This document shows, one piece after another, positions 1-9,803 of a stretch of 10,514 nt of DNA. How positions within the stretch are numbered: position 1 is the stretch's first letter; every line of letters starts with the position of its first letter. Source of the stretch: an uncultured Aliterella sp. (GTDB lineage: Bacteria; Cyanobacteriota; Cyanobacteriia; Cyanobacteriales; Chroococcidiopsidaceae); contig CAJQOK010000386.1 in assembly GCA_905479905.1 (NCBI GenBank), positions 1 through 10,514 of the forward strand. Direction: 5' to 3'. The notes under the pieces were generated by a model. It did not search any database. It had not been told where the DNA came from and saw nothing but the letters and a program-made list of their open reading frames with translations. The position numbers were made by a program, and so were the translations under genes.

Positions 1-874
1 AAGCTCTAGTGCAGACGTTCGCATACCAAGCTGTAGGAGTATTAAAAGCAAAAAAATCGATTTCTGTCAAACTCACTCCTGCTTTATTTGCGGCTTCTTG
101 GCAGCAAGTACGAACAAAATCGACGGCTGTTTCTGCTAAACTACTAGCATTTTCTCCTGTTTGCGTTAATATTCGCGGTTTACCTAGCTCGTCAGTTTCT
201 AGACTGTGACAGTATGCACCGTAGGTAGCAGCCGTAGATACTATTTTGTGCGCTAAAATTCCCTGGTTTGGTTTGAGTTGTTCGACAACAAAAGCTCCCG
301 CACCATCTCCCATTGACCAAGCAAGGGTATCTCGTTCTCGAACAGTATTCGAGCCAAAGTGAGAGACAATTACCAAAGCATTACTGTATTCTCCGGTTTG
401 GATTAAAGCACGGGCATTTTGCAGTGCTACTAAAGCGCTAGAACAAGTTGATTCGAGATTCCACGCAGGACACTTTAACCCTAATTTTCGAGCTAACCTA
501 GTGGTGTTATCCATCCCCAGGCGATCCAGAGAAGCCACGATCGCTACCTCTACTTCTTCAACTGGCAATTTTGCTGCGGCTAACGCCTCTGTTGCTGCTC
601 GATATTGAATTGCTAAAGAAGATTCATCCGCGCCTAGTACTCGCCGTTCTACATTCCCTCGAAAGGGGTCAGATAAATAGGGTGCAACCTCTTGAGACCA
701 AAGATCGACATCATCCTCACTACTAGATATAGTCGAGCTTCTTTTGTTTCTTTTTGGCGCTTGGCGCACCATCTCAGGATATTTTTGCTGCCAATAATCG
801 TTGGTACGGATAGTGCTAGGAAAGCTAACGGCTAGGGAACGGATACCTATTGACACTGGTGTAGATATAGACAT
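1..874 (-). CDS. KAS III-like (3-oxoacyl-ACP synthase III family) condensing or acyl-transfer enzyme, C-terminus outside the window
   Basis: I translated this frame by hand: it is open from ATG 874-872 to the left window edge, giving 291 residues without a stop. The thiolase-fold nucleophile is Cys144 in the motif NLESTCSSALVAL, and the fold glycines follow in MGDGAGAFVVEQ (residues 188-199). The region that carries the catalytic His in FabH (start of the C-terminal half, after a conserved Ile-Asp) reads IDFFAFNTPTAWY (272-284), so Asn278 stands where His is expected; the later FabH-type Asn would lie beyond the window. The family catalyses decarboxylative condensation or acyl transfer from acyl-CoA or acyl-ACP. 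The gene starts 15 nt after the AcpS-like gene and is probably last of those visible in the minus-strand operon; no clear Shine-Dalgarno is seen. I infer that it uses the aryl thioester made by the upstream ligase and ACP. The family call is firm; the substrate is unknown. Confidence 0.85.
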   Translation of the reverse strand, partial: MSISTPVSIGIRSLAVSFPSTIRTNDYWQQKYPEMVRQAPKRNKRSSTISSSEDDVDLWSQEVAPYLSDPFRGNVERRVLGADESSLAIQYRAATEALAAAKLPVEEVEVAIVASLDRLGMDNTTRLARKLGLKCPAWNLESTCSSALVALQNARALIQTGEYSNALVIVSHFGSNTVRERDTLAWSMGDGAGAFVVEQLKPNQGILAHKIVSTAATYGAYCHSLETDELGKPRILTQTGENASSLAETAVDFVRTCCQEAANKAGVSLTEIDFFAFNTPTAWYANVCTRA

Positions 875-889
875 ATTAAAACTACTGAT

Positions 890-1318
890 TTAAACTACTG
901 CGATCGCGCTGGCTACGGCATAGGTAGCAGTATGACTAATACTTAACAACCATTGCTTAATACCGAGTTTTGCTGCTATTTCTTGACATCGACCGTACAA
1001 AACTACAGCAGGTTGACCTGTGGGTAATCTGAGAATTTCAATATCTAGCCAATTCAAGCAAAGATCGTTTTTACTGATAATCGCAATTGCTTTCTTAGCA
1101 GCCAAACGACCAGCTAAGTATTGAATTCGCCGTTCACCAGTATCGGTAACGCTGCACTCTGTACTTGTATAGTGTTGCTGGATAAATTTCTCTCCTTCTC
1201 GTTCTACAAGATGTTTGAAGCGGTAAATTTCTAATACTTGCAAGCTATGGTTCAAGGTCTTAAAGTCTTCACAACTCTTGGTTAAACTTCCTACATTGCT
1301 TTCATACATTGATCGCAT
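890..1318 (-). CDS. AcpS-like 4'-phosphopantetheinyl transferase homologue lacking both usual metal ligands
   Basis: The product is 142 aa from ATG 1318; a TTG at 1327 and an ATG at 1309 are alternatives. GGTAGAG lies 9 nt before the 1309 ATG, so that start (139 aa) is also plausible. The AcpS fold is clear: the segment EREGEKFIQQHYTSTE matches the family FxxRxFTxxE region, YLAGRLAAKKA matches YLAGRFAAKEA, then LDIEILRLPTGQPAV, and a C-terminal LLSISHTATYAVA that matches the SxSHT strand. Two key positions differ. The Asp of the N-terminal G-x-D motif is Gln (SLQVLEI), and the metal-binding Glu of AAKEA is Lys. In AcpS these two acidic residues coordinate Mg2+ for transfer from CoA to the carrier serine, so this copy is probably inactive alone, a partner subunit, or altered in role. 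It sits between the salicylate synthase and the KAS III-like gene, both close by. There is no frameshift here; the substitutions are in frame. Confidence 0.78.
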   Translation of the reverse strand: MRSMYESNVGSLTKSCEDFKTLNHSLQVLEIYRFKHLVEREGEKFIQQHYTSTECSVTDTGERRIQYLAGRLAAKKAIAIISKNDLCLNWLDIEILRLPTGQPAVVLYGRCQEIAAKLGIKQWLLSISHTATYAVASAIAVV

Positions 1319-1336
1319 CTCTACCAAATTTAGTAA

Positions 1337-2656
1337 TTAGTTTTTAAGCACCAAATTATTCAACACGGTATTCATCTTGTTGACAGACTCAACATACTCG
1401 TGCTGAGGAACTGATTCAGCAATAATTCCCGCCCCTGCATTCAAATAAATGCGATCGCCATATTGATAAACTGAGCGAATTGCGATCGCTAAATCTGCTT
1501 CCCCTTGGCTGTTTATCCAGCCAATACTACCAGCATAAATTCCTCTCGGTTCTGCTTCTAGGCGATCTATCCACTCTAGGGCTTTTTGTTTACTAATTCC
1601 CGATACTGTAATCCCCGGAAACAAGACTTTTAAAGCATCCCAAAGAGTATTATCAGCCTTAAGCTGACCTCCTACTTTCGATGACAGGTGTTGCACGCAA
1701 CGATACTGTTTAACCTCCATAAAGTTTAAAATCCGTACTGTTTCTGGCACGCAAACAGCAGCAATTTCATCTTGCGCCAGCCAAACTGAGAGAGAATGTT
1801 CTTTTACCTCTTTGGCATCGGTAAATAACTCGTTGTTAAACTTAATATCTTCTTCGATACTGACACCGCGAGGTCTAGTTCCTGCTAAGGGGTTAGTGAC
1901 AACAAAACCATCTCGTACCTCCATCAAAGTTTCAGGGCTAAAACCTACCGCGCTAACATCTCCCAGATTTAAACAATAAGAGCGAGCAGAATTATTAGCT
2001 TTAGTACCGAGAACGTAAGTGCCTAAAATATCCAGTTCGCCAGATAATTGAATAGAACGGGAAACAATCGCCTTATGCAAACGAGCGTTTTTAATTGCCT
2101 CAATTAAGGTGCTGACAGAGCTTTGATACTGTTCGCGATCGCTCTGGTCAACATTGACAGTTGTTGCCTGGTAATCTGGTAATTCAGACTCCATAAATAG
2201 TTGTCTTCTCACCAAGTCTAATGATTGAGTAGTCTTAATTCGTACTCCTTGTTTGGTAAAGTGCAGTTCGGTTTCAGGAATTAAGAAATGACACAAAGAC
2301 TGTAAGCTGACTTTGGCATAGGCAGAATAAAAACGTGCTAGATCAAAAGCCGTATAGCCGTATGCTGTCCAATCTTCAATGGGTAACGAGTTTAAGAGGC
2401 TCTCTACCTGTTTAAAGGGATCGCTGACTGGTTCTACAGAAGATTTCCCCGCTCCTTCAAGCAATACCTTATCTTGAGTAACGATTACTTTAGCTAGTTC
2501 GCCTCCAGCAATACGAACCTCGTTTTTTCCTTCGTACATGACATATTGAGTAAAAATGCCAGCTTGCAGGAGATTGTTGAGAACTACAATTGCGTCCCTG
2601 TGACCGGGAACGAAGGTTTCACGATACTTAATTGCGGTTTTAAATTCTAATACCAT
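1337..2656 (-). CDS. salicylate synthase / isochorismate synthase (chorismate-utilizing, MbtI/Irp9/YbtS type)
   Basis: The 439-aa protein has the chorismate-binding fold in its C-terminal two thirds and matches the length of Irp9 (434) and MbtI (450) better than EntC (about 390). Recognisable sites are the general-base Lys195 in HKAIVSR, the general-acid Glu242 in VGFSPE, NPLAGTRPRG (255-264), the metal-binding DAKEVKEH (280-287), and the salicylate-synthase-like run CVQHLSSKVGG and LFPGITVSGISK (320-357). The C-terminus has RGIYAGSIGW, IRSVYQ, NAGAGI and HEYVES. The family converts chorismate to isochorismate with Mg2+; the salicylate synthase branch then eliminates pyruvate to give salicylate. 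The PLAGTR and SGISK context favours salicylate synthase, but pure isochorismate synthase cannot be excluded by eye. The gene lies 39 nt after the AMP-ligase gene, the next step of the pathway, and 18 nt before the AcpS-like ATG at 1318. No strong Shine-Dalgarno is seen. Confidence 0.85.
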   Translation of the reverse strand: MVLEFKTAIKYRETFVPGHRDAIVVLNNLLQAGIFTQYVMYEGKNEVRIAGGELAKVIVTQDKVLLEGAGKSSVEPVSDPFKQVESLLNSLPIEDWTAYGYTAFDLARFYSAYAKVSLQSLCHFLIPETELHFTKQGVRIKTTQSLDLVRRQLFMESELPDYQATTVNVDQSDREQYQSSVSTLIEAIKNARLHKAIVSRSIQLSGELDILGTYVLGTKANNSARSYCLNLGDVSAVGFSPETLMEVRDGFVVTNPLAGTRPRGVSIEEDIKFNNELFTDAKEVKEHSLSVWLAQDEIAAVCVPETVRILNFMEVKQYRCVQHLSSKVGGQLKADNTLWDALKVLFPGITVSGISKQKALEWIDRLEAEPRGIYAGSIGWINSQGEADLAIAIRSVYQYGDRIYLNAGAGIIAESVPQHEYVESVNKMNTVLNNLVLKN

Positions 2657-2695
2657 TTGCTTGTTATTTAATTGATAATTAGGCGATTAGCGAAG

Positions 2696-4252
2696 CTACC
2701 GAGCAATAGTTAATAAATTGGGTTGCGGTTGTCTCAACAAACGACGATGAATTTTTCCGGTAGAGGTGCGCGGTAAACTCTCCACAAAGTAAATCTGTTG
2801 GGGAGTTTTAAAATGAGGTAAATGCTGTCTGGCAAACTGACGAATACTTTTTTCGATCTCAATACTAGGCTGTCGTGCTGACTTCAAGCTGATATAGGCA
2901 ACAATTTGCGTCAGGCGATCGCCACCATTGTATTCAGGTACTATGGCAACTTCCAACACTTGTTGATGTTGATATAAAACTCCTTCTATTTCTAAAGGCG
3001 ATACCCACTGACCGTTAACTTTAAACAAGTCATCACCTCGTCCCATGAACCAGAAAAAACCATCGCGATCGCGTTTATATTTATCTCCAGTTCGCATCAC
3101 GTTCCCGTAGATAGCTTGGCGCGTTTTTTGCAGTTGATTCCAGTAACCCAACATCAGGCTTTCCCCCTTTACCTCTAGTTCGCCAATTTCATCATCTCTA
3201 CAGGGAATACCGCGATCGTCCACAACCCGAACATCGTAACCAGGTATGGGACGACCAGAACTCCCTGGTTTAGATTCTCCCAAGCGATTAGAGAGAAATA
3301 TATGCAGAAACTCTGTAGTGCCAATTCCCTCACAAATTTCTAAACCATGTACCTGTGTCCATTCTTGCCAAATACTCTTTGGTAGTTGTTCGGCTGCGGA
3401 CACGCACAAGCGCAGCGATGATGAATCCAAACCAGCAATTTCTTTTAGCTCTAAAATACTGGCATAAACGCTAGGTATGCCAAAAAATACTGTCGGTCGA
3501 TAGTGTTGAATATCGTCGATAATATCGAAGGCATTACTAGCATCAGATAATACTGAAGCTGCACCAACTGCTAGGGGAAAATAAACACTATTACCCAAAC
3601 CATAGGCAAAAGCAATATTAGCAACAGAATAAAAAATATCTTTTTCATTCAAGCCTAGAACAGCTTCAGCATACTGTTTGACGCACACTAATACACTCTG
3701 ATGAGCGTGCATGACCCCTTTCGGTTGTCCTGTGCTACCAGAAGTGTAAAGCCAAAAAGCTACTTCATCGGGTGATGTCGTCGCGTAAGTTGTTAGTTCT
3801 GAGCAATTTTCAAGTAGAGATAAAAATGGCTGTTTGCCATCGATGAGTAATATCTGATGCAAACGATCTGACAAAAGAGATAGCTTTTCTTGCCATGCTT
3901 GGCTAGTTAGCAATATCTTGATGCGAGAGTCTTGAACAATATAGTCGATCTCTGCGACTGAACAAGCAGGATTAATCGGCACGGGTACAGCACCTAGCCA
4001 AATTGCGCCCAGAAAAAAGATTGCTGATTCCGACCGATTTGGTAATAATATCCCAACGCGATTTTCTCTTTCTACACCAAGCGTTGCCAGTAATTTAGCA
4101 CTGCGTCTGACTAAACTATTTAGCTGCGAGTAAGTATAAGTTTGATCGCGATCGCAAAGTGCTATTTTCTCCCCATTCCCTCGCGCTAAGTTGCTCTCTA
4201 GCAAATAAGCAGCAATGTTAAAAATATCTGGTCGTTTGTCAATCTCATTCAT
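2696..4252 (-). CDS. aryl-acid AMP-forming ligase, benzoate-CoA ligase type (predicted salicylate-activating)
   Basis: This 518-aa ANL-superfamily enzyme has the P-loop LYTSGSTGQPKG (168-179), the benzoate-CoA-ligase-type motif AFAYGLGNSVYFPLAVG (214-230), GIGTTE (309-314), TGD (388-390), the hinge region GRGDDLFKVNGQWVSP (404-419) and the catalytic Lys500 in PRTSTGKIHRR. It should adenylate an aromatic acid and transfer it to CoA or to a carrier-protein phosphopantetheine. The next gene downstream makes salicylate and an ACP is encoded upstream, so salicyl-AMP to salicyl-ACP is the favoured reaction (inference). It is not the usual DhbE/YbtE/MbtA stand-alone ligase: the AFAYGLGN block points to the benzoate-CoA ligase branch. 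The ATG at 4252 is preceded by AAGGA with 8 nt spacing, a good ribosome-binding site. The gap to the preceding AcpS gene is 27 nt. Substrate could also be benzoate or a hydroxybenzoate. Confidence 0.85.
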   Translation of the reverse strand: MNEIDKRPDIFNIAAYLLESNLARGNGEKIALCDRDQTYTYSQLNSLVRRSAKLLATLGVERENRVGILLPNRSESAIFFLGAIWLGAVPVPINPACSVAEIDYIVQDSRIKILLTSQAWQEKLSLLSDRLHQILLIDGKQPFLSLLENCSELTTYATTSPDEVAFWLYTSGSTGQPKGVMHAHQSVLVCVKQYAEAVLGLNEKDIFYSVANIAFAYGLGNSVYFPLAVGAASVLSDASNAFDIIDDIQHYRPTVFFGIPSVYASILELKEIAGLDSSSLRLCVSAAEQLPKSIWQEWTQVHGLEICEGIGTTEFLHIFLSNRLGESKPGSSGRPIPGYDVRVVDDRGIPCRDDEIGELEVKGESLMLGYWNQLQKTRQAIYGNVMRTGDKYKRDRDGFFWFMGRGDDLFKVNGQWVSPLEIEGVLYQHQQVLEVAIVPEYNGGDRLTQIVAYISLKSARQPSIEIEKSIRQFARQHLPHFKTPQQIYFVESLPRTSTGKIHRRLLRQPQPNLLTIAR

Positions 4253-4279
4253 TTAAACTTTCCTTCAAGGCTTATAGGT

Positions 4280-4707
4280 CTAGGAGAGAGCTAAAACGTT
4301 GACTACTAAGCAATCTTGCCACTTCCACCAGTCAACAAACCACTGTTGAATACCCAGTTTTTGAGCTTGAATTTTTGCCCGTCCGTGCAAACAAACTACT
4401 GGCCGATCTTGAGTGATGTCTACTTCAATTTCATTCCAGCCGATGCCCACAAAACCAATACCTAAAGCTTTGCTTACGGCTTCTTTGATGGCAAAACACA
4501 ATGTATAAGCGCAATTTGGTGAAGAAAGCGCCACGCGATCGCTAACTGATTGACAATACTTTTGTTCTTGGAGAGTAAACACCATCGTTAAGGTTTCGCG
4601 ATCGTAGCGATCGATTAACCTGGCAATTTTGGGTATAGATGCAATGTCAACGCCAATTCCTTTGACTTCGGTTTTTTTGGCAAGGTGCTAATACTAATTG
4701 TATTCAT
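4280..4707 (-). CDS. AcpS-type holo-ACP synthase with a frame break at an A7 run
   Basis: The C-terminal 101 residues (frame open from an internal ATG at 4585) begin with MVFTLQEQKYC, which is the middle of an AcpS protein (FTxxExxYC). The missing N-terminus, KGIGVDIASIPKIARLIDR, lies directly upstream in the same frame, carrying the metal-binding Asp, but that frame has no ATG, GTG or TTG before an in-frame TAG at 4688-4690. The adjacent frame has ATG 4707-4705 with AAGGA 7 nt upstream. The two frames meet at seven A residues (T7 on the + strand, 4672-4678). Reading one extra A, or slipping back by one, gives a 142-aa AcpS with Asp21 and the Glu of FAIKEA (residue 76). Without it the ATG yields only 31 aa. 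The C-terminal SxSHT strand is replaced by FVDWWKWQDC. It is the likely activator of the neighbouring ACP. Slippage, a real mutation or a sequencing error are all possible. Confidence 0.72.
4672..4678 (-). other. A7 homopolymer, candidate slippage site
   Basis: On the coding (minus) strand, the reading frame of the ATG at 4707 enters this run as CCA AAA AAA CCG, and the AcpS frame leaves it as AAA AAA ACC GAA. The run therefore fits both a ribosomal -1 slip on A AAA AAA and a transcriptional insertion of one A. No clear downstream stem-loop was identified by eye, and the AAGGA ribosome-binding site is too far upstream to act as a stimulator of the kind known from dnaX. It may also be an assembly or sequencing error in a homopolymer. 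Confidence 0.55.
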
Positions 4708-4754
4708 TAAACTGTCCTTACTATATACAACAATTCTCAACAATTTAACTGAGC

Positions 4755-5009
4755 TTAGTTCTGAGATGTCATCTGTGACATGACTGACTCGATTAAAGTA
4801 CAGACTTCAGCTAAACTTTTGTCCCGACGAGTTTCTAATTTGACATTAATGCCCAGCCTGCGTTTTAATGCTAGGGCAACTTCTATTGTTTCTGTAGAAT
4901 CTAGCTGTAAGTCCTGATGGAGCAAAGCTTCAGGGTGTATCAACTCTGCTGGAATTCCTAGAGCTTTGAGTATATCCTCAAGGTTGCTCATCACCTTAAC
5001 AGTGTCCAT
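4755..5009 (-). CDS. discrete acyl/aryl carrier protein
   Basis: The 84-aa protein has the carrier-protein four-helix pattern, with the phosphopantetheine attachment motif DLQLDSTETIEVALALK (33-49). Ser38, in D-S-T-E, is the predicted modified residue. It differs from housekeeping AcpP (usually D-S-L-D), so a specialised carrier for an aryl or unusual acyl group is likely (inference). The ATG at 5009 has GGAGG about 12 nt upstream; ATG 4991 is an alternative but has AAGGTG almost touching it. It is the first gene of the minus-strand run, 47 nt before the ATG of the AcpS gene. Such a small ACP next to a dedicated transferase and an aryl ligase suggests it holds the salicyl thioester for the KAS III-like enzyme. 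No condensation or NRPS domain is attached. Confidence 0.85.
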   Translation of the reverse strand: MDTVKVMSNLEDILKALGIPAELIHPEALLHQDLQLDSTETIEVALALKRRLGINVKLETRRDKSLAEVCTLIESVMSQMTSQN

Positions 5010-5224: not shown

Positions 5225-5239
5225 TAGAAATAATTATCA
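5225..5239. promoter_or_regulatory. candidate Fur box 2
   Basis: TAGAAATAATTATCA has a perfect right half (ATTATCA) and 4 of 7 matches in the left half, 11 of 14 against the 7-1-7 Fur consensus. It lies about 135 bp before the permease start, upstream of the candidate plus-strand promoter. The region is AT-rich, so a chance match is possible. Confidence 0.42.
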
Positions 5240-5244
5240 TCAAG

Positions 5245-5374: not shown

Positions 5375-6364
5375 TTGCGACTACCCTTGCTTATTGGCTT
5401 ATTATTAGGAGCGATCGCTCTATTGCTGTGTCTAATTGCCAGCGTTGCCTATGGCGCGGCGGACATTTCCTTAGATACTGTATTTGCTGCGCTGACCAAT
5501 TTTGACGGTTCAGCTAACCACTTGATTATTCTGACAGCGAGGCTACCGCGATCGCTCGTTGCCATTTTGGTAGGGGCTGCCCTCGCTGTTGCCGGAGCAA
5601 TTATGCAAGGGATAACACGCAATCCCTTAGCCGACCCAGCTATTTTAGGTATAGAAGCAGGTGCATCCTTAGCAGTCGTTGCGACGACTTTTTTGTTTGG
5701 TAGTTCTTCGGTAAATACCTACATCGGATTCGCCTTTATGGGTGCAGGGCTAGCGGCGATCGCAGTTTATTGGCTAGCTTCTCTCGGTCGCGGCGGATTA
5801 ACACCCCTAAATCTCACAATTGTGGGCGCTGTCCTCACGGCTTTATTCTACTCATTAACTATAGGCATCCTGATTATTAGCCAACGCACGCTAGACGAAA
5901 TCCGCTTTTGGTTAGCTGGGTCAATTGCTGGCATAGACTTCAGTATGTTAATTCAAGTGCTGCCATACATCTCTATCGGATTAGTAATGGCATTTGCCCT
6001 AAGCAGACAAATTACAGTTTTGAACTTAGGCGAGGATGTAGCGCAAGGTTTGGGGCAAAGTACCGTGTGGATAAAGGCGATCGCTGGTGTAAGTGTAGTG
6101 CTATTAGCAGGTAGTTCTGTGGCGATCGCCGGACCAATTGGCTTTGTCGGTTTGGTAGTACCTCACATCGTCCGCTTTATTGTTGGTGTGGATTACCGAT
6201 GGATTCTTCCCTATGCGGCAATTGTAGGAGCGATTTTATTGCTCTTAGCCGATCTCAGCAGTCGCGTACTCCTAGCACCGCGAGAATTACCTGTGGGCGT
6301 AATGACAGCAATAGTTGGCGCTCCCTTTTTCCTCTATTTGGCGCGGTCGAAGGTAAAACGATGA
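5375..6364 (+). CDS. FecCD-family iron-siderophore ABC transporter permease 1
   Basis: The 329-aa, highly hydrophobic protein should form about ten membrane helices. It carries the FecCD/BtuC signature region GAIMQGITRNPLADPAILGIEAGASLAV and the cytoplasmic-loop motif GPIGFVGLVVPHIVRFIVG, which contacts the ATPase. It is one half of the inner-membrane channel for ferric siderophores; vitamin B12 and haem are related substrates. The start is odd: TTG 5375 directly follows an in-frame TAA, no ATG exists between 5300 and 5374, and no Shine-Dalgarno is seen. The N-terminus starts at the first membrane helix and may be a few residues short compared with relatives. A second TTG at 5387 is possible. 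The stop overlaps the ATG of the next gene (ATGA), indicating translational coupling. Confidence 0.9.
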   Translation: MRLPLLIGLLLGAIALLLCLIASVAYGAADISLDTVFAALTNFDGSANHLIILTARLPRSLVAILVGAALAVAGAIMQGITRNPLADPAILGIEAGASLAVVATTFLFGSSSVNTYIGFAFMGAGLAAIAVYWLASLGRGGLTPLNLTIVGAVLTALFYSLTIGILIISQRTLDEIRFWLAGSIAGIDFSMLIQVLPYISIGLVMAFALSRQITVLNLGEDVAQGLGQSTVWIKAIAGVSVVLLAGSSVAIAGPIGFVGLVVPHIVRFIVGVDYRWILPYAAIVGAILLLLADLSSRVLLAPRELPVGVMTAIVGAPFFLYLARSKVKR

Positions 6365-7404
6365 ATAAAGGCTGGCTTGTTATCACCTCTCCCCACTTGG
6401 GCGTATCCTTCCGACTCAATCGGCGAGTACCAGCAGTAATGTTAGCCCTAGTAGTTATCACGCTAGCAGCGATGGTTGCGAGTATTGGACAAGGCGAATA
6501 CCCAATTCCACCCTTAGAGGTCGTAAAAACCCTACTCGGTTGGGACAGCAATCGCGACTACTCATTTATTATCAATACGCTGCGACTGCCTAGAACCTTA
6601 GTTGCTTTCATGGTAGGAGTGGGGCTAGCAATCTCAGGAACAATTTTGCAAGGGCTAACTCGCAATCCGCTTGCTGACCCTAGCATTATTGGCATTAACG
6701 CTGGTGCTAGTCTAGCAGTTGTCAGTTTAGTTGTTCTGTTCCCGTCAGCGCCGATGTATCTTCTGCCTTGGAGTGCTTTTGGTGGTGCTGTAGTTGTAGC
6801 TGCATCAATTTACTTATTGGCTTGGAATCAAGGCAGTTCTCCCGTCCAATTAATTTTAGTAGGAATTGGGCTAGCAGCGATCGCTACAGCTTTGACTAAC
6901 TTAGCGATCGCCTTTGGGGAAATTAGTAGCGTCAGTCAAGCTTTAGTTTGGCTAGCAGGTAGCGTCTATGGGTGCGGTTGGGAACACGTAGCCACTATCC
7001 TCCCTTGGCTGATTGTTTTGACAGCGCTAGCGTTGATACTGGCACCGCAACTCAACATCCTGAACTTGGGCGATGATGTTGCTAGGGGTTTAGGGAGCGC
7101 AGTCGAGTGGCAGCGCGGTTTGCTGTTATTAATTAGCGTCGCTTTGGCTGGGGCAGCCGTGGCGACTGCTGGCACAATTGCTTTTGTCGGTTTAATTGCC
7201 CCGCATCTAGGGCGAATGCTGGTAGGCCCGACTCATGAAGGTACAATTCCAACTGCTGCCTTGACGGGAGGAGCGATCGTGGTGTTAGCAGATTTAGCAG
7301 GGCGGACAGCGTTTGCCCCCATCGAACTCCCTTGCGGCATTGTCACTGCTGCTGTGGGTGCGCCCTATTTTCTCTATCTATTGTATCGAAATCGTAATGC
7401 GTAA
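6361..7404 (+). CDS. FecCD-family iron-siderophore ABC transporter permease 2
   Basis: The product is 347 aa from the ATG at 6361, which overlaps the preceding stop by 4 nt and is preceded by GAAGGT at suitable spacing. The frame is open further upstream to 6199, but that extension overlaps permease 1 and is not protein-like, so I reject it. Signature blocks mirror the first permease: GTILQGLTRNPLADPSIIG and GTIAFVGLIAPHLGRMLVG, with about ten membrane segments. It is a paralogue of the upstream gene, and the two should form a heterodimeric channel in the inner membrane, as in FecC/FecD or FepD/FepG. It is followed 44 nt later by the ATPase gene. The substrate is not readable from the sequence; the divergent salicylate genes suggest an aryl siderophore. 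Confidence 0.92.
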   Translation: MNKGWLVITSPHLGVSFRLNRRVPAVMLALVVITLAAMVASIGQGEYPIPPLEVVKTLLGWDSNRDYSFIINTLRLPRTLVAFMVGVGLAISGTILQGLTRNPLADPSIIGINAGASLAVVSLVVLFPSAPMYLLPWSAFGGAVVVAASIYLLAWNQGSSPVQLILVGIGLAAIATALTNLAIAFGEISSVSQALVWLAGSVYGCGWEHVATILPWLIVLTALALILAPQLNILNLGDDVARGLGSAVEWQRGLLLLISVALAGAAVATAGTIAFVGLIAPHLGRMLVGPTHEGTIPTAALTGGAIVVLADLAGRTAFAPIELPCGIVTAAVGAPYFLYLLYRNRNA

Positions 7405-7448: not shown

Positions 7449-8276
7449 ATGTTGCCACCAATGAAGCCTGAAATCGATAGTTCTTACACGCTCACAACCC
7501 GCAAGCTGACCCTATCCTACGACAAAAATTCGGTCATAGGAAGTCTCGATCTCGCCATTCCAACTGGACAAATTACCGCACTTGTCGGTCCTAACGGCTG
7601 TGGCAAGTCTACTCTGCTGCGGGGACTGGCACGCTTACTAAAGCCGCAAAGCGGTACAGTCTATCTTGACGGCAAGGCGATCGCCCAGCTTTCCACAAAA
7701 GAGGTTGCCAAGCGCCTTAGCATCCTGCCCCAAAACCCAACCGCACCAGAGGGATTAACAGTTAGAGAATTAATTGCTCAAGGACGCTACCCGCATCAAA
7801 CTTGGCGGCAACAGTGGTCGCAGGAAGACGAACGAATGCTGAAACAGGCGATCGCCATGACAAACTTAGTACCTCTTGCCGAGCGACCTCTTGATACCCT
7901 CTCCGGCGGACAGCGACAGCGTGCTTGGATTGCCATGACCTTAGCTCAAAACACAGATATTCTGCTGCTGGATGAACCGACTACTTTTCTTGACCTTGCT
8001 CACCAAATTGAAGTCCTCGATTTACTTGACGATCTCAATTGCAATTACGGACGAACGATTGTCATGGTTTTGCACGATCTCAATTTAGCCTGTCGCTATG
8101 CAAGCAATCTGATTGCTCTACGCAACGGACAGGTGTTCGCCCAAGGCTCAGTCAAGCAGGTAATGACAGAAACGATGCTGAAAGAGGTATTTGGGCTAGA
8201 AAGTTTGATTATGGTAGACCCAGTAGCTAAAACGCCAATGTGCATTCCTATAGGACGTAAAATGGTTGTGTCGTAA
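7449..8276 (+). CDS. iron-siderophore ABC transporter ATP-binding protein (FecE/FepC/FhuC type)
   Basis: The 275-aa protein has Walker [10 protein letters not shown] (47-55), the Q-loop LPQ (93-95), the signature LSGGQRQR (151-158), Walker B ILLLDE (171-176) and the H-loop His209 in VLHDLNLA. The order and length are typical of the ATPase of ferric-siderophore importers, and it would drive the two FecCD permeases encoded just upstream. Starts at ATG 7449 or ATG 7461 are both possible (275 or 271 aa); neither has a clear ribosome-binding site, and a stray ATG at 7445 is in another frame. It is the last gene of the plus-strand operon. No periplasmic binding-protein gene follows; the partner must be encoded elsewhere. 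Confidence 0.93.
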
Positions 8277-8659: not shown

Positions 8660-9589
8660 TCAATATACTTGAGGGACAAAGAACTGCTCGTTGCGAGGGG
8701 CGCGAACATAATCGTATGATAGAGGTCTGGGCGGAAGCTCTAGAGGAGGAGGGGTCATATCTTCGTAGGGAATTTTGCTCAGTAAATGATGAAGGCAATT
8801 GAGCCTAGAGCGTTTTTTATCGTCCGCCTCAATCGTAAACCAGGGCGCTTCAGGAATATTTGTGCGCGCAAACATGGCATCTTTTGCTTGCGAGTATTCC
8901 TGCCAACGAGCGCGCGATTCCAAATCCATTGGACTGAGTTTCCAACGTCTTGCTGGATCGTGACTGCGGGATAAAAAGCGCCGCTCTTGCTCCTCATCGC
9001 TGACTGAGAACCAATACTTTAGCAAAATAATCCCCGAACCAACTAACATTCGTTCAAATTGGGGGCAAGATTCCATGAATTCACTATACTCAGCATCAGT
9101 ACAAAAGCCCATGATTCTTTCAACTCCGGCTCGGTTGTACCAACTGCGATCAAATAGGACAATTTCACCCGCCGCCGGAAGGTGTGCCACGTAGCGCTGG
9201 AAATACCACTGAGTTTTCTCGCGGTCGGAGGGAGTGCCTAGAGCCACAACTCGACAACCACGAGGGTTAAGTGGTTCATTAATCCGTTTAATCACGCCAC
9301 CTTTTCCCGCCGCATCTCGACCTTCAAAAATCACCACAACTCGATAACCAACGTGCTTAAGCCAGTATTGCATTTTGACTAATTCAACCTGGAGTTGCCT
9401 TAATTGGGTTTCGTAAGTTTTCTTAGGAATCTTCTTGGCAAAGATTTCGTTACTACCATCAAAAATCTTTTTTGATTTCTTAGGTTTTTTCTCGTCTTGT
9501 ACCTTTAATAATTTCTCTGCTAAATCTGGAGTCAGTTGAACTAAGCCATTATTTTTTAGTTCTTCTCCTTTAATTTCATCGGTTGACAT
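8660..9589 (-). CDS. ppk2: polyphosphate kinase 2 (PPK2) family protein
   Basis: The product is 309 aa from ATG 9589, with GAGAG 9 nt upstream; a TTG two codons earlier is less likely. The Walker A-like loop is FEGRDAAGKGG (88-98) and the Walker B/lid region is LFDRSWYNRAGVERIMGFC (145-163), both diagnostic of PPK2. Further family blocks are GTPSDREKTQWYFQRYVAHLP (split at 118-138) and KLSPMDLESRARW. PPK2 enzymes transfer phosphate between polyphosphate and nucleoside mono- or diphosphates in the cytoplasm. The length and a single domain fit class I (nucleoside diphosphate phosphorylating), though class is not certain by eye. A Lys-rich N-terminal tail (residues 25-58) precedes the domain. 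It is a lone gene, convergent with the ABC operon, and not obviously part of the iron module. Confidence 0.93.
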   Translation of the reverse strand: MSTDEIKGEELKNNGLVQLTPDLAEKLLKVQDEKKPKKSKKIFDGSNEIFAKKIPKKTYETQLRQLQVELVKMQYWLKHVGYRVVVIFEGRDAAGKGGVIKRINEPLNPRGCRVVALGTPSDREKTQWYFQRYVAHLPAAGEIVLFDRSWYNRAGVERIMGFCTDAEYSEFMESCPQFERMLVGSGIILLKYWFSVSDEEQERRFLSRSHDPARRWKLSPMDLESRARWQEYSQAKDAMFARTNIPEAPWFTIEADDKKRSRLNCLHHLLSKIPYEDMTPPPLELPPRPLSYDYVRAPRNEQFFVPQVY

Positions 9590-9803
9590 ATACAATTACT
9601 CTCTTATTTAATTGGCTAACTTAAATTTACTTACTAAGGAAGGATCTGATCTGTATACTATAAGTCAAATGGAACGTCAGGAAATGTCACACAAATACGG
9701 CTTTGGAAATCTTTACCAATTATAATGAGCTAGGATCGACTGTAAATGCTACTTGTTCTAAAATTGCCTTGACTGCTGGCTGTTTAATATAGATACATTT
9801 TGG
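9590..9803. other. intergenic spacer upstream of ppk2
   Basis: No gene is supported in this stretch. It must carry the ppk2 promoter on the minus strand; TTGACT occurs there (plus-strand AGTCAA, 9663-9668), but no convincing -10 at standard spacing was found. A short open minus-strand frame near 9725-9806 looks protein-like but has no recognisable identity. Confidence 0.35.

Follow-up and report, generated by a model that had tools for sequence, protein, structure and literature searches.

How does a cyanobacterial gene cluster activate an aryl starter unit, and to what is that starter passed on? The question is posed by contig C386 of an uncultured Aliterella sp., which in its entirety is the stretch of DNA analysed here (the window; 10,514 nucleotides, from a 3.2-Mb genome with 65% completeness). 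Six genes, all on the minus strand, lie within positions 2–5009 and encode a discrete acyl carrier protein (ACP), an AcpS-family protein (PPT1), an aryl ligase, a salicylate synthase, a second AcpS-like protein (PPT2) and a β-ketoacyl-ACP synthase III (KAS III)-like enzyme. The genes are separated by 15 (KAS III/PPT2), 9 (PPT2/salicylate synthase), 39 (salicylate synthase/ligase) and 27 (ligase/PPT1) bases. A sequence-only reading had described this tight run, and both the coordinates and the family scores bear it out; every part it listed is present, with the reservation that the contig end leaves the KAS III gene incomplete and that the PPT1 open reading frame (ORF) as listed lacks its N-terminus. 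That reading had also proposed searching for the gene set across cyanobacterial genomes. The search returned the six genes in identical order in 12 fetched relatives (L016, L019, L020, L022, L023, L024, L053, L054, L056, L058, L069 and L070), in some of which an extra ORF interrupts the order. The locus is very probably one half, the one that loads the starter, of a metallophore cluster of the salicyl-thiazoline type represented by fatuamide and lusichelin; such clusters combine a non-ribosomal peptide synthetase (NRPS) with a polyketide synthase (PKS), and this one is distributed over two contigs. This type of cluster is already published, and the locus is a further member. The excerpted descriptions of the fatuamide and lusichelin clusters give no role to the KAS III or to the second AcpS-like protein (PMC11877528, PMC12210259). 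We propose that PPT1 and PPT2 together make up one divided AcpS and that the KAS III-like protein relays the salicyl group; combined with the cluster type, this explanation as a whole seems to us probable.

Proposed activation of the discrete carrier protein

In AcpS, the metal side and the coenzyme A (CoA) side of the active site are contributed by two adjacent subunits: in the V. cholerae enzyme, Asp8, Glu57 and Lys61 come from one chain, and Ser111, Asp112, Lys51 and His80 from the neighbouring chain. PPT1 has the AcpS fold and keeps the metal-side residues D8, E58 and K62; its CoA side is lost. PPT2, also of AcpS fold, retains R53, GxP and SISH on the CoA side, and its metal side is degenerate, with Q at D8 and K at E58. 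All three metal-side residues are present in 141 of 143 PPT1 sequences (here and below, those among the matches listed) versus 0 of 33 PPT2 sequences; the two PPT1 lacking a full metal side (L021 and L056) are both short frames. All five CoA-side positions are kept in 33 of 33 PPT2 versus 0 of 143 PPT1, in which at most two of the five are found. No sequence of either set has a complete active site. A reference of 38 AcpS proteins from the cyanobacterial phylum has a full metal side in 36 and a full CoA side in 33; this set leans towards intact enzymes because its profile was seeded with sequences selected for the motifs AAKEA and SH, and its members were not residue-filtered after profile selection. 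An additional 13 PPT1 and 14 partners, retrieved with these same profiles, point in that direction too. The PPT1 searches matched 320 and 464 proteins, with 120 of each among the matches listed, and the 143 PPT1 comprise the 120 from one search, the PPT1 of the fetched loci and that of the window. Identical sequences were counted once, the intact PPT2 cousins of L053, G234 and G232 were kept apart, and G036:C85 was given its own row.

This pattern provides strong sequence evidence for an AcpS that would work only as a PPT1:PPT2 hetero-oligomer, and we incline towards that reading. The window's ACP would then be activated by a dedicated two-subunit AcpS, PPT1 supplying the metal half-site and PPT2 the CoA half-site. 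In its wider form, to which we lean a little less, the proposal is that PPT1 and PPT2 are obligate partners in a cyanobacterial two-gene phosphopantetheinyl transferase (PPTase) for Sfp-refractory salicyl-ACPs, and that PPT1 may borrow an AcpS subunit in clusters without PPT2, an AcpS elsewhere in the genome taking over the PPT2 role. Judged against the residues that we take to be their Sfp counterparts, the pair may have recreated with two AcpS copies the sharing of tasks found inside the single Sfp chain; we favour this to the same modest degree as the two-gene proposal.

The distribution of the genes is consistent with such a partnership. Among 229 genomes of the order, 25 contain PPT1 (E up to 1e-35), and a 386-genome phylum sample adds three more (G237, G314 and G375); further matches in that sample, at 61–82 bits, were taken as other AcpS-type proteins and not as PPT1. 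A second AcpS-type protein is encoded in all 28, as PPT2 in or near the cluster or as AcpS elsewhere, and in 25 of them this protein has a complete CoA side (exceptions: G036, G422 and G542). In one PPT1 genome (G011), AcpS has itself lost E58. Among the 60 nearest genomes, 13 carry PPT1; AcpS is found in 8 of the 47 others, or in 10 of the 47 if two weak matches of Sfp length (G024, G048) are included. The comparison of 13/13 with 8/47 gives 4e-8 in a Fisher test, uncorrected for kinship. Separately, G497 was seen to contain two PPT1–PPT2 pairs, on contigs C596 and C336 (L249/L261 and L255/L269), the second PPT2 match having an internal stop.

The presumed substrate resembles a carrier protein on which experiments have been published. 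The window ACP reads Q-L-D-S-T around the pantetheine serine, with Q at S-3 and T at S+1, like Q31 and T35 of gloACP, and we infer that it is the salicyl carrier, of FatB/gloACP type. In the excerpted text of PMC11744666, Q31 and T35, at -3 and +1 of the serine, are the reason why gloACP is refractory to Sfp: the variant Sfp R4-4 left wild-type gloACP unmodified and modified it after Q31/T35 changes. The same excerpts report that gloSCL, with salicylate and ATP, loads Q31G/T35L holo-gloACP, and that gloPPT alone did not activate gloACP, either on coexpression or in vitro (PMC11744666). A Gloeocapsa sp. PCC 7428 protein matches the PPT1 of locus L136 at 100% identity; the ACP of this locus carries Q and T where a count by hand gives 31 and 35, and the genome has a complete AcpS elsewhere (L071). 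We therefore take gloPPT to be the L136 PPT1. On this reading, gloPPT failed in print for want of its partner subunit, and E. coli's own AcpS did not replace that partner in the coexpression as excerpted. Across the loci, the residue following the ACP serine is Thr in 22 of 24 cases where PPT1 is present (Leu in L022, Val in L054) and Val in six of six where both PPT1 and PPT2 are absent; the serine flanks of L021, L022, L024 and L070 were read by eye. In this PPT-less group, no PPT2/AcpS profile match at 1e-4 was found in G170, G230 or G373, and G371 has one.

Several points weigh against a divided enzyme. The six PPT-less loci fall into two clades of a salicylate synthase and ligase tree, and so represent some two events rather than six. 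Irrespective of PPT1, AcpS is present in most of the family to which the window belongs, its genus excepted, and the co-occurrence statistic takes no account of this kinship. Nine loci (L059 and L131–L138) have PPT1 and no adjacent PPT2. Partners intact at all checked positions stand beside PPT1 in L053/G314, G527 and G541, and those of G036, G422 and G542 are also without R53 and both serines. The His at the SISH position is retained in 71 of 143 PPT1, R53 is attributed to its chain by comparison with V. cholerae Lys51, and the identity of gloPPT with the L136 PPT1 is our own deduction. Finally, the authors of the gloPPT experiments could not exclude misfolding (PMC11744666, excerpts).

Part of this evidence would suit a different arrangement, in which PPT1 acts alone, as a full AcpS whose CoA pocket is altered, and PPT2 is a decaying, functionless copy. 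PPT1 does keep D8, E58 and K62, half of its copies keep the His near the end, and it stands without PPT2 at the nine loci named above. However, decay of PPT2 is made unlikely by the fact that 33 of 33 sequences retain the full set of five CoA-side positions, the PPT2-less loci lie in genomes with another AcpS-type gene, and gloPPT alone was inactive (PMC11744666, as excerpted); we regard a self-sufficient PPT1 as unlikely. It is more doubtful still that PPT1 and PPT2 are ACP-binding chaperones or regulators and that an Sfp-type housekeeping enzyme carries out the phosphopantetheinylation. This would account for the lack of a complete active site in either set, and a PF01648 match is indeed present in all 52 relatives of good completeness, the best among the matches listed being of Sfp length. 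Yet Sfp R4-4 modified gloACP only after changes to the very residues that the window ACP shares (PMC11744666, excerpts), and the half-sites of the two proteins are complementary residue by residue.

If the divided AcpS is real, two distinct gene products jointly form the active site of one PPTase. This would explain the published failure of gloPPT on gloACP and suggest a remedy, the addition of the partner subunit, so that Sfp-refractory carrier proteins could be activated without mutation. Two genes annotated only as PPTase-like, fatC and fatF, would also gain a role. That cyanobacteria have AcpS-type PPTases is in itself known: a clade with eight cyanobacterial members has been presented (PMC5605751, excerpts). 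Among the papers listed by literature searches, none was seen to describe a two-gene AcpS.

The PPT1 gene of the window has an unusual start. Its frame is open upstream of the listed ORF, giving 135 residues that include the GIGVD motif absent from that ORF. No ATG, GTG or TTG occurs in the upstream stretch of this frame (window 4586–4714, minus strand), and the nearest upstream ATG, located by eye, is out of frame and precedes seven consecutive A residues by 29 bases. A -1 shift there would enter the PPT1 frame, which may reflect slippage rather than an assembly error. In L056, near 13258–13500, the PPT1 frame is likewise without ATG, GTG or TTG, and an out-of-frame ATG again stands 29 bases before a seven-A run, where a -1 shift would have the same effect.

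Proposed transfer of the salicyl starter

The salicylate synthase, related most closely among PDB entries to one of the MbtI type, passes its equivalog cutoff, and from its family would convert chorismate to salicylate. The nearest solved structures to the aryl ligase are benzoate- and anthranilate-CoA ligases; by analogy with gloSCL, it would adenylate salicylate and load it onto the discrete holo-ACP. The next step concerns the KAS III-like protein, which is ~500 amino acids long in relatives and in L016 consists of a KAS III domain and a C-terminal carrier domain. Fused copies are found in 25 distinct loci. In the locus counts, the duplicate pairs L051/L015 and L062/L025 each enter once.

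In KAS III enzymes such as FabH, with residue numbers as generally given, the catalytic His is required for decarboxylation. In a profile alignment, the Cys and Asn of the FabH active site fall on conserved residues of the same kind, and its His aligns with an Asn. All 25 fused copies keep the Cys and the Asn; where FabH has His, 24 of them have Asn and one has Ser. In the window protein, the Cys is present and the His position is Asn. The window protein thus lacks the Cys-His-Asn condensing triad of FabH. It also lacks the Cys-His-Asp triad of ChlB3 and CerJ, since neither aligned FabH catalytic position is His. ChlB3 is a KAS III-like acyltransferase with Cys-His-Asp that moves 6-methylsalicyl between carrier proteins (PMC9573744, excerpts). 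Judged by its triad, the window protein appears to belong to neither type, and it may still act like ChlB3.

We consider it likely that the KAS III-like protein acts as a relay, moving salicyl from the discrete ACP to the carrier fused to it: the His-less enzyme would take up the salicyl group on its Cys and pass it to the C-terminal carrier domain. Such a relay is favoured by its fit to the gene order, to the fused frame of L060 and to the fatuamide structure. In L060 (1293–6050, genome G021), KAS III, carrier and heterocyclization (Cy) NRPS lie in a single open frame of 1585 amino acids, and in fatuamide, as excerpted, the salicyl is bonded directly to the thiazoline (PMC11877528). One finding weighs against the relay: CerJ H295N is inactive (PMC9573744, excerpts), so that a KAS III without the catalytic His may be a poor acyltransferase.

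The sequence-only reading had KAS III offloading or extending salicyl-ACP. The handling of salicyl-ACP survives, most likely as the relay from the discrete ACP; extension is disfavoured. Specifically, condensation of a malonyl unit onto salicyl, giving a product of 2-hydroxybenzoylacetyl or 4-hydroxycoumarin type, would suit the KAS III fold, the conserved Cys and Asn, and the presence of a Pseudomonas quinolone signal (PQS) biosynthetic enzyme and PqsC among the relatives of solved structure. But Asn or Ser replaces the His in every one of the 25 fused copies, a carrier domain and a Cy-NRPS come next, and in the excerpted structure description of fatuamide, which is assigned to a cluster containing this gene, salicyl and thiazoline are not separated by a C2 unit (PMC11877528). 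Transfer rather than extension is probable because the condensation His is gone and the salicyl of fatuamide is attached directly, and we see little room for malonyl condensation. The relay would make the KAS III–carrier fusion a candidate for the aryl-starter step of fatuamide and lusichelin, to which the steps described in the excerpts assign none.

Other forms of the protein exist. G021 has an unfused version (L058) besides the fused L060, and homologues of 371–390 amino acids without a carrier domain occur among other neighbours in L025/L062, L061 and L063–L068. Those of L025 (aromatic amino acid lyase, ligase, thiamine pyrophosphate enzyme, chorismate mutase, tyrosinase and a Coq4-like protein) belong to a different aromatic pathway.

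Downstream genes and cluster type

The genes to the left of position 1, to which the sequence-only reading had looked for the acceptor, are indeed informative. Contig C15 of the same genome (5276 bp) opens with residues matching 313–502 of a relative's KAS III, and the rest of the KAS III gene including the carrier domain is G000:C15:2-571. Next comes a 1155-amino-acid protein matching the relative's NRPS, with Cy, adenylation (A) and peptidyl carrier protein (PCP) domains and the motif DLQIFDAWS, and then the start of a PKS ketosynthase, named from sequence alone. The window ends at KAS III residue 295 and C15 resumes at 313, which places ~17 residues inside the assembly gap. A join between C386 and C15 through the split KAS III gene is the simplest reading; that the junction is deduced in this way counts against the reconstruction.

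The consensus of Cy domains is DxxxxDxxS. An NRPS with the heterocyclization motif DLxxFDAWS is found, within the fetched stretch, in 21 of the 25 distinct loci with a fused KAS III, and it adjoins the KAS III or stands one gene away. The motif was not found in the fetched stretches of L021, L024, L057 and L059; L024 keeps a condensation remnant only, and L057 carries a different motif. In L016, the protein after KAS III has TubC docking, condensation, adenylation and carrier domains and is followed by a PKS. In L019, a 557-amino-acid protein with tryptophan-halogenase and FAD-binding matches (11598–13271) lies between KAS III and the Cy-NRPS; ORFs of similar size and place (549–557 amino acids) occur in L020, L023, L069 and L070, the domain scan covering L019.

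The pathway had been called NRPS-free, with KAS III offloading or extending salicyl-ACP and no NRPS involved, and the window itself does hold an aryl ligase, a discrete ACP and a KAS III and no NRPS; this is rejected, and hardly credible, because an NRPS lies directly downstream in the same genome, a finding which that reading itself had held to be decisive, followed by a PKS, and because an NRPS is present in 21 of the 25 relatives and, in the same order, in the fatuamide cluster. With the salicyl group on the fused carrier, the Cy domain of the next NRPS would condense it with an amino acid, probably Cys, to give a thiazoline, and PKS/NRPS modules would continue; the Cys specificity of the first A domain is assumed from FatH.

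Neighbouring genes and known systems

Divergent from the ACP gene are Fec-type transporter genes, whose products would import the metal complex of the predicted metallophore (Table 1). In the promoter region between them, two overlapping weak matches, with three mismatches, to what we take to be the Fur-box pattern lie at 5225–5242; at least two also occur in 27 of 200 window shuffles. A promoter scan gave 2 matches versus a mean of 1.3 in shuffles. PPT2 scores below the curated cutoffs of all listed AcpS models but TIGR00556.

Table 1. Features of the window with family scores (bits) and cutoffs
Feature	Position	Strand	Family match
Discrete ACP, 84 aa	4755..5009	-	PF00550 23.0, cutoff 20.8
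PPT1, AcpS family	4280..4684 (listed ORF 4280-4585)	-	PF01648 35.7, cutoff 25
Aryl (salicylate) AMP ligase, FatD/gloSCL type	2696..4252	-	TIGR02262 (benzoate-CoA ligase family) 486.9, cutoff 375
Salicylate synthase, MbtI/Irp9 type	1337..2656	-	TIGR03494 332.0, cutoff 325.15
PPT2, AcpS-like	890..1327	-	TIGR00556 55.0, cutoff 45.35
KAS III-like, N-terminal 291 aa, gene cut by contig end	2..874	-	PF08545 49.6, cutoff 24
FecCD-type siderophore ABC permease, divergent	5375..6364	+	PF01032 317.5
Second FecCD-type permease	6355..7404	+	PF01032 320.1
FecE/FepC-type ABC ATPase	7449..8276	+	PF00005; NCBIfam FecE 338.3, under cutoff 375
PPK2-type polyphosphate kinase, apparently unrelated	8660-9595	-	Above family cutoff

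The published clusters are compared here by their excerpted gene descriptions. The fatuamide cluster (fatA–fatR) includes fatB (ACP), fatC (PPTase superfamily), fatD (benzoate-CoA-ligase family), fatE (salicylate synthase), fatF ('holo-ACP synthase'), fatG (KAS III, 1524 nt) and fatH (Cy-A(Cys)-P), with fatF and fatG given no function in the excerpts (PMC11877528). The genes of the window and C15 stand in the fatB–fatH order. Like that kind of cluster, they include a salicylate synthase and an aryl ligase above cutoff and, as read from C15 and the relatives, a first module of Cy-A-PCP followed by a PKS. Unlike in fatuamide, the PKS after the NRPS is seen here only as a ketosynthase start, and the Fec genes are divergent. 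The lusichelin cluster (lus) has a salicylate synthase, an AMP ligase, a Cy-type first NRPS and then a PKS, the same starter order as here; its excerpted description leads from the salicylate ligase to the NRPS and does not name a KAS III relay (PMC12210259). Leptochelins are named as cyanobacterial metallophores in both papers.

A module of ligase, ACP, PPT1 and salicylate synthase also occurs in type II PKS-like clusters of other cyanobacteria (L131–L136 and L138); L135, the member that was domain-scanned, has two ketosynthase-family proteins, a cupin and cyclases. The published Gloeocapsa gloPKS cluster (L136) shares with the window a salicylate ligase, an ACP with Q and T, PPT1 and a salicylate synthase. 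There, the module primes a type II PKS (ketosynthase/chain-length factor), and PPT2, KAS III and an NRPS were not found in the fetched part of L136.

The KAS III-like protein shares its fold and active-site Cys with ChlB3 and CerJ (PMC9573744, excerpts). They have Cys-His-Asp, whereas the window protein has Cys, Asn (or Ser in relatives) and Asn, and its likely acceptor carrier is fused to the enzyme. As for the PPTases, excerpts of PMC3447402 describe AcpS (group I) as having both half-sites in one polypeptide, used three times, and Sfp-type enzymes (group II) as having the half-sites fused in one chain. In the locus described here, the two half-sites would instead be divided between two separate genes.

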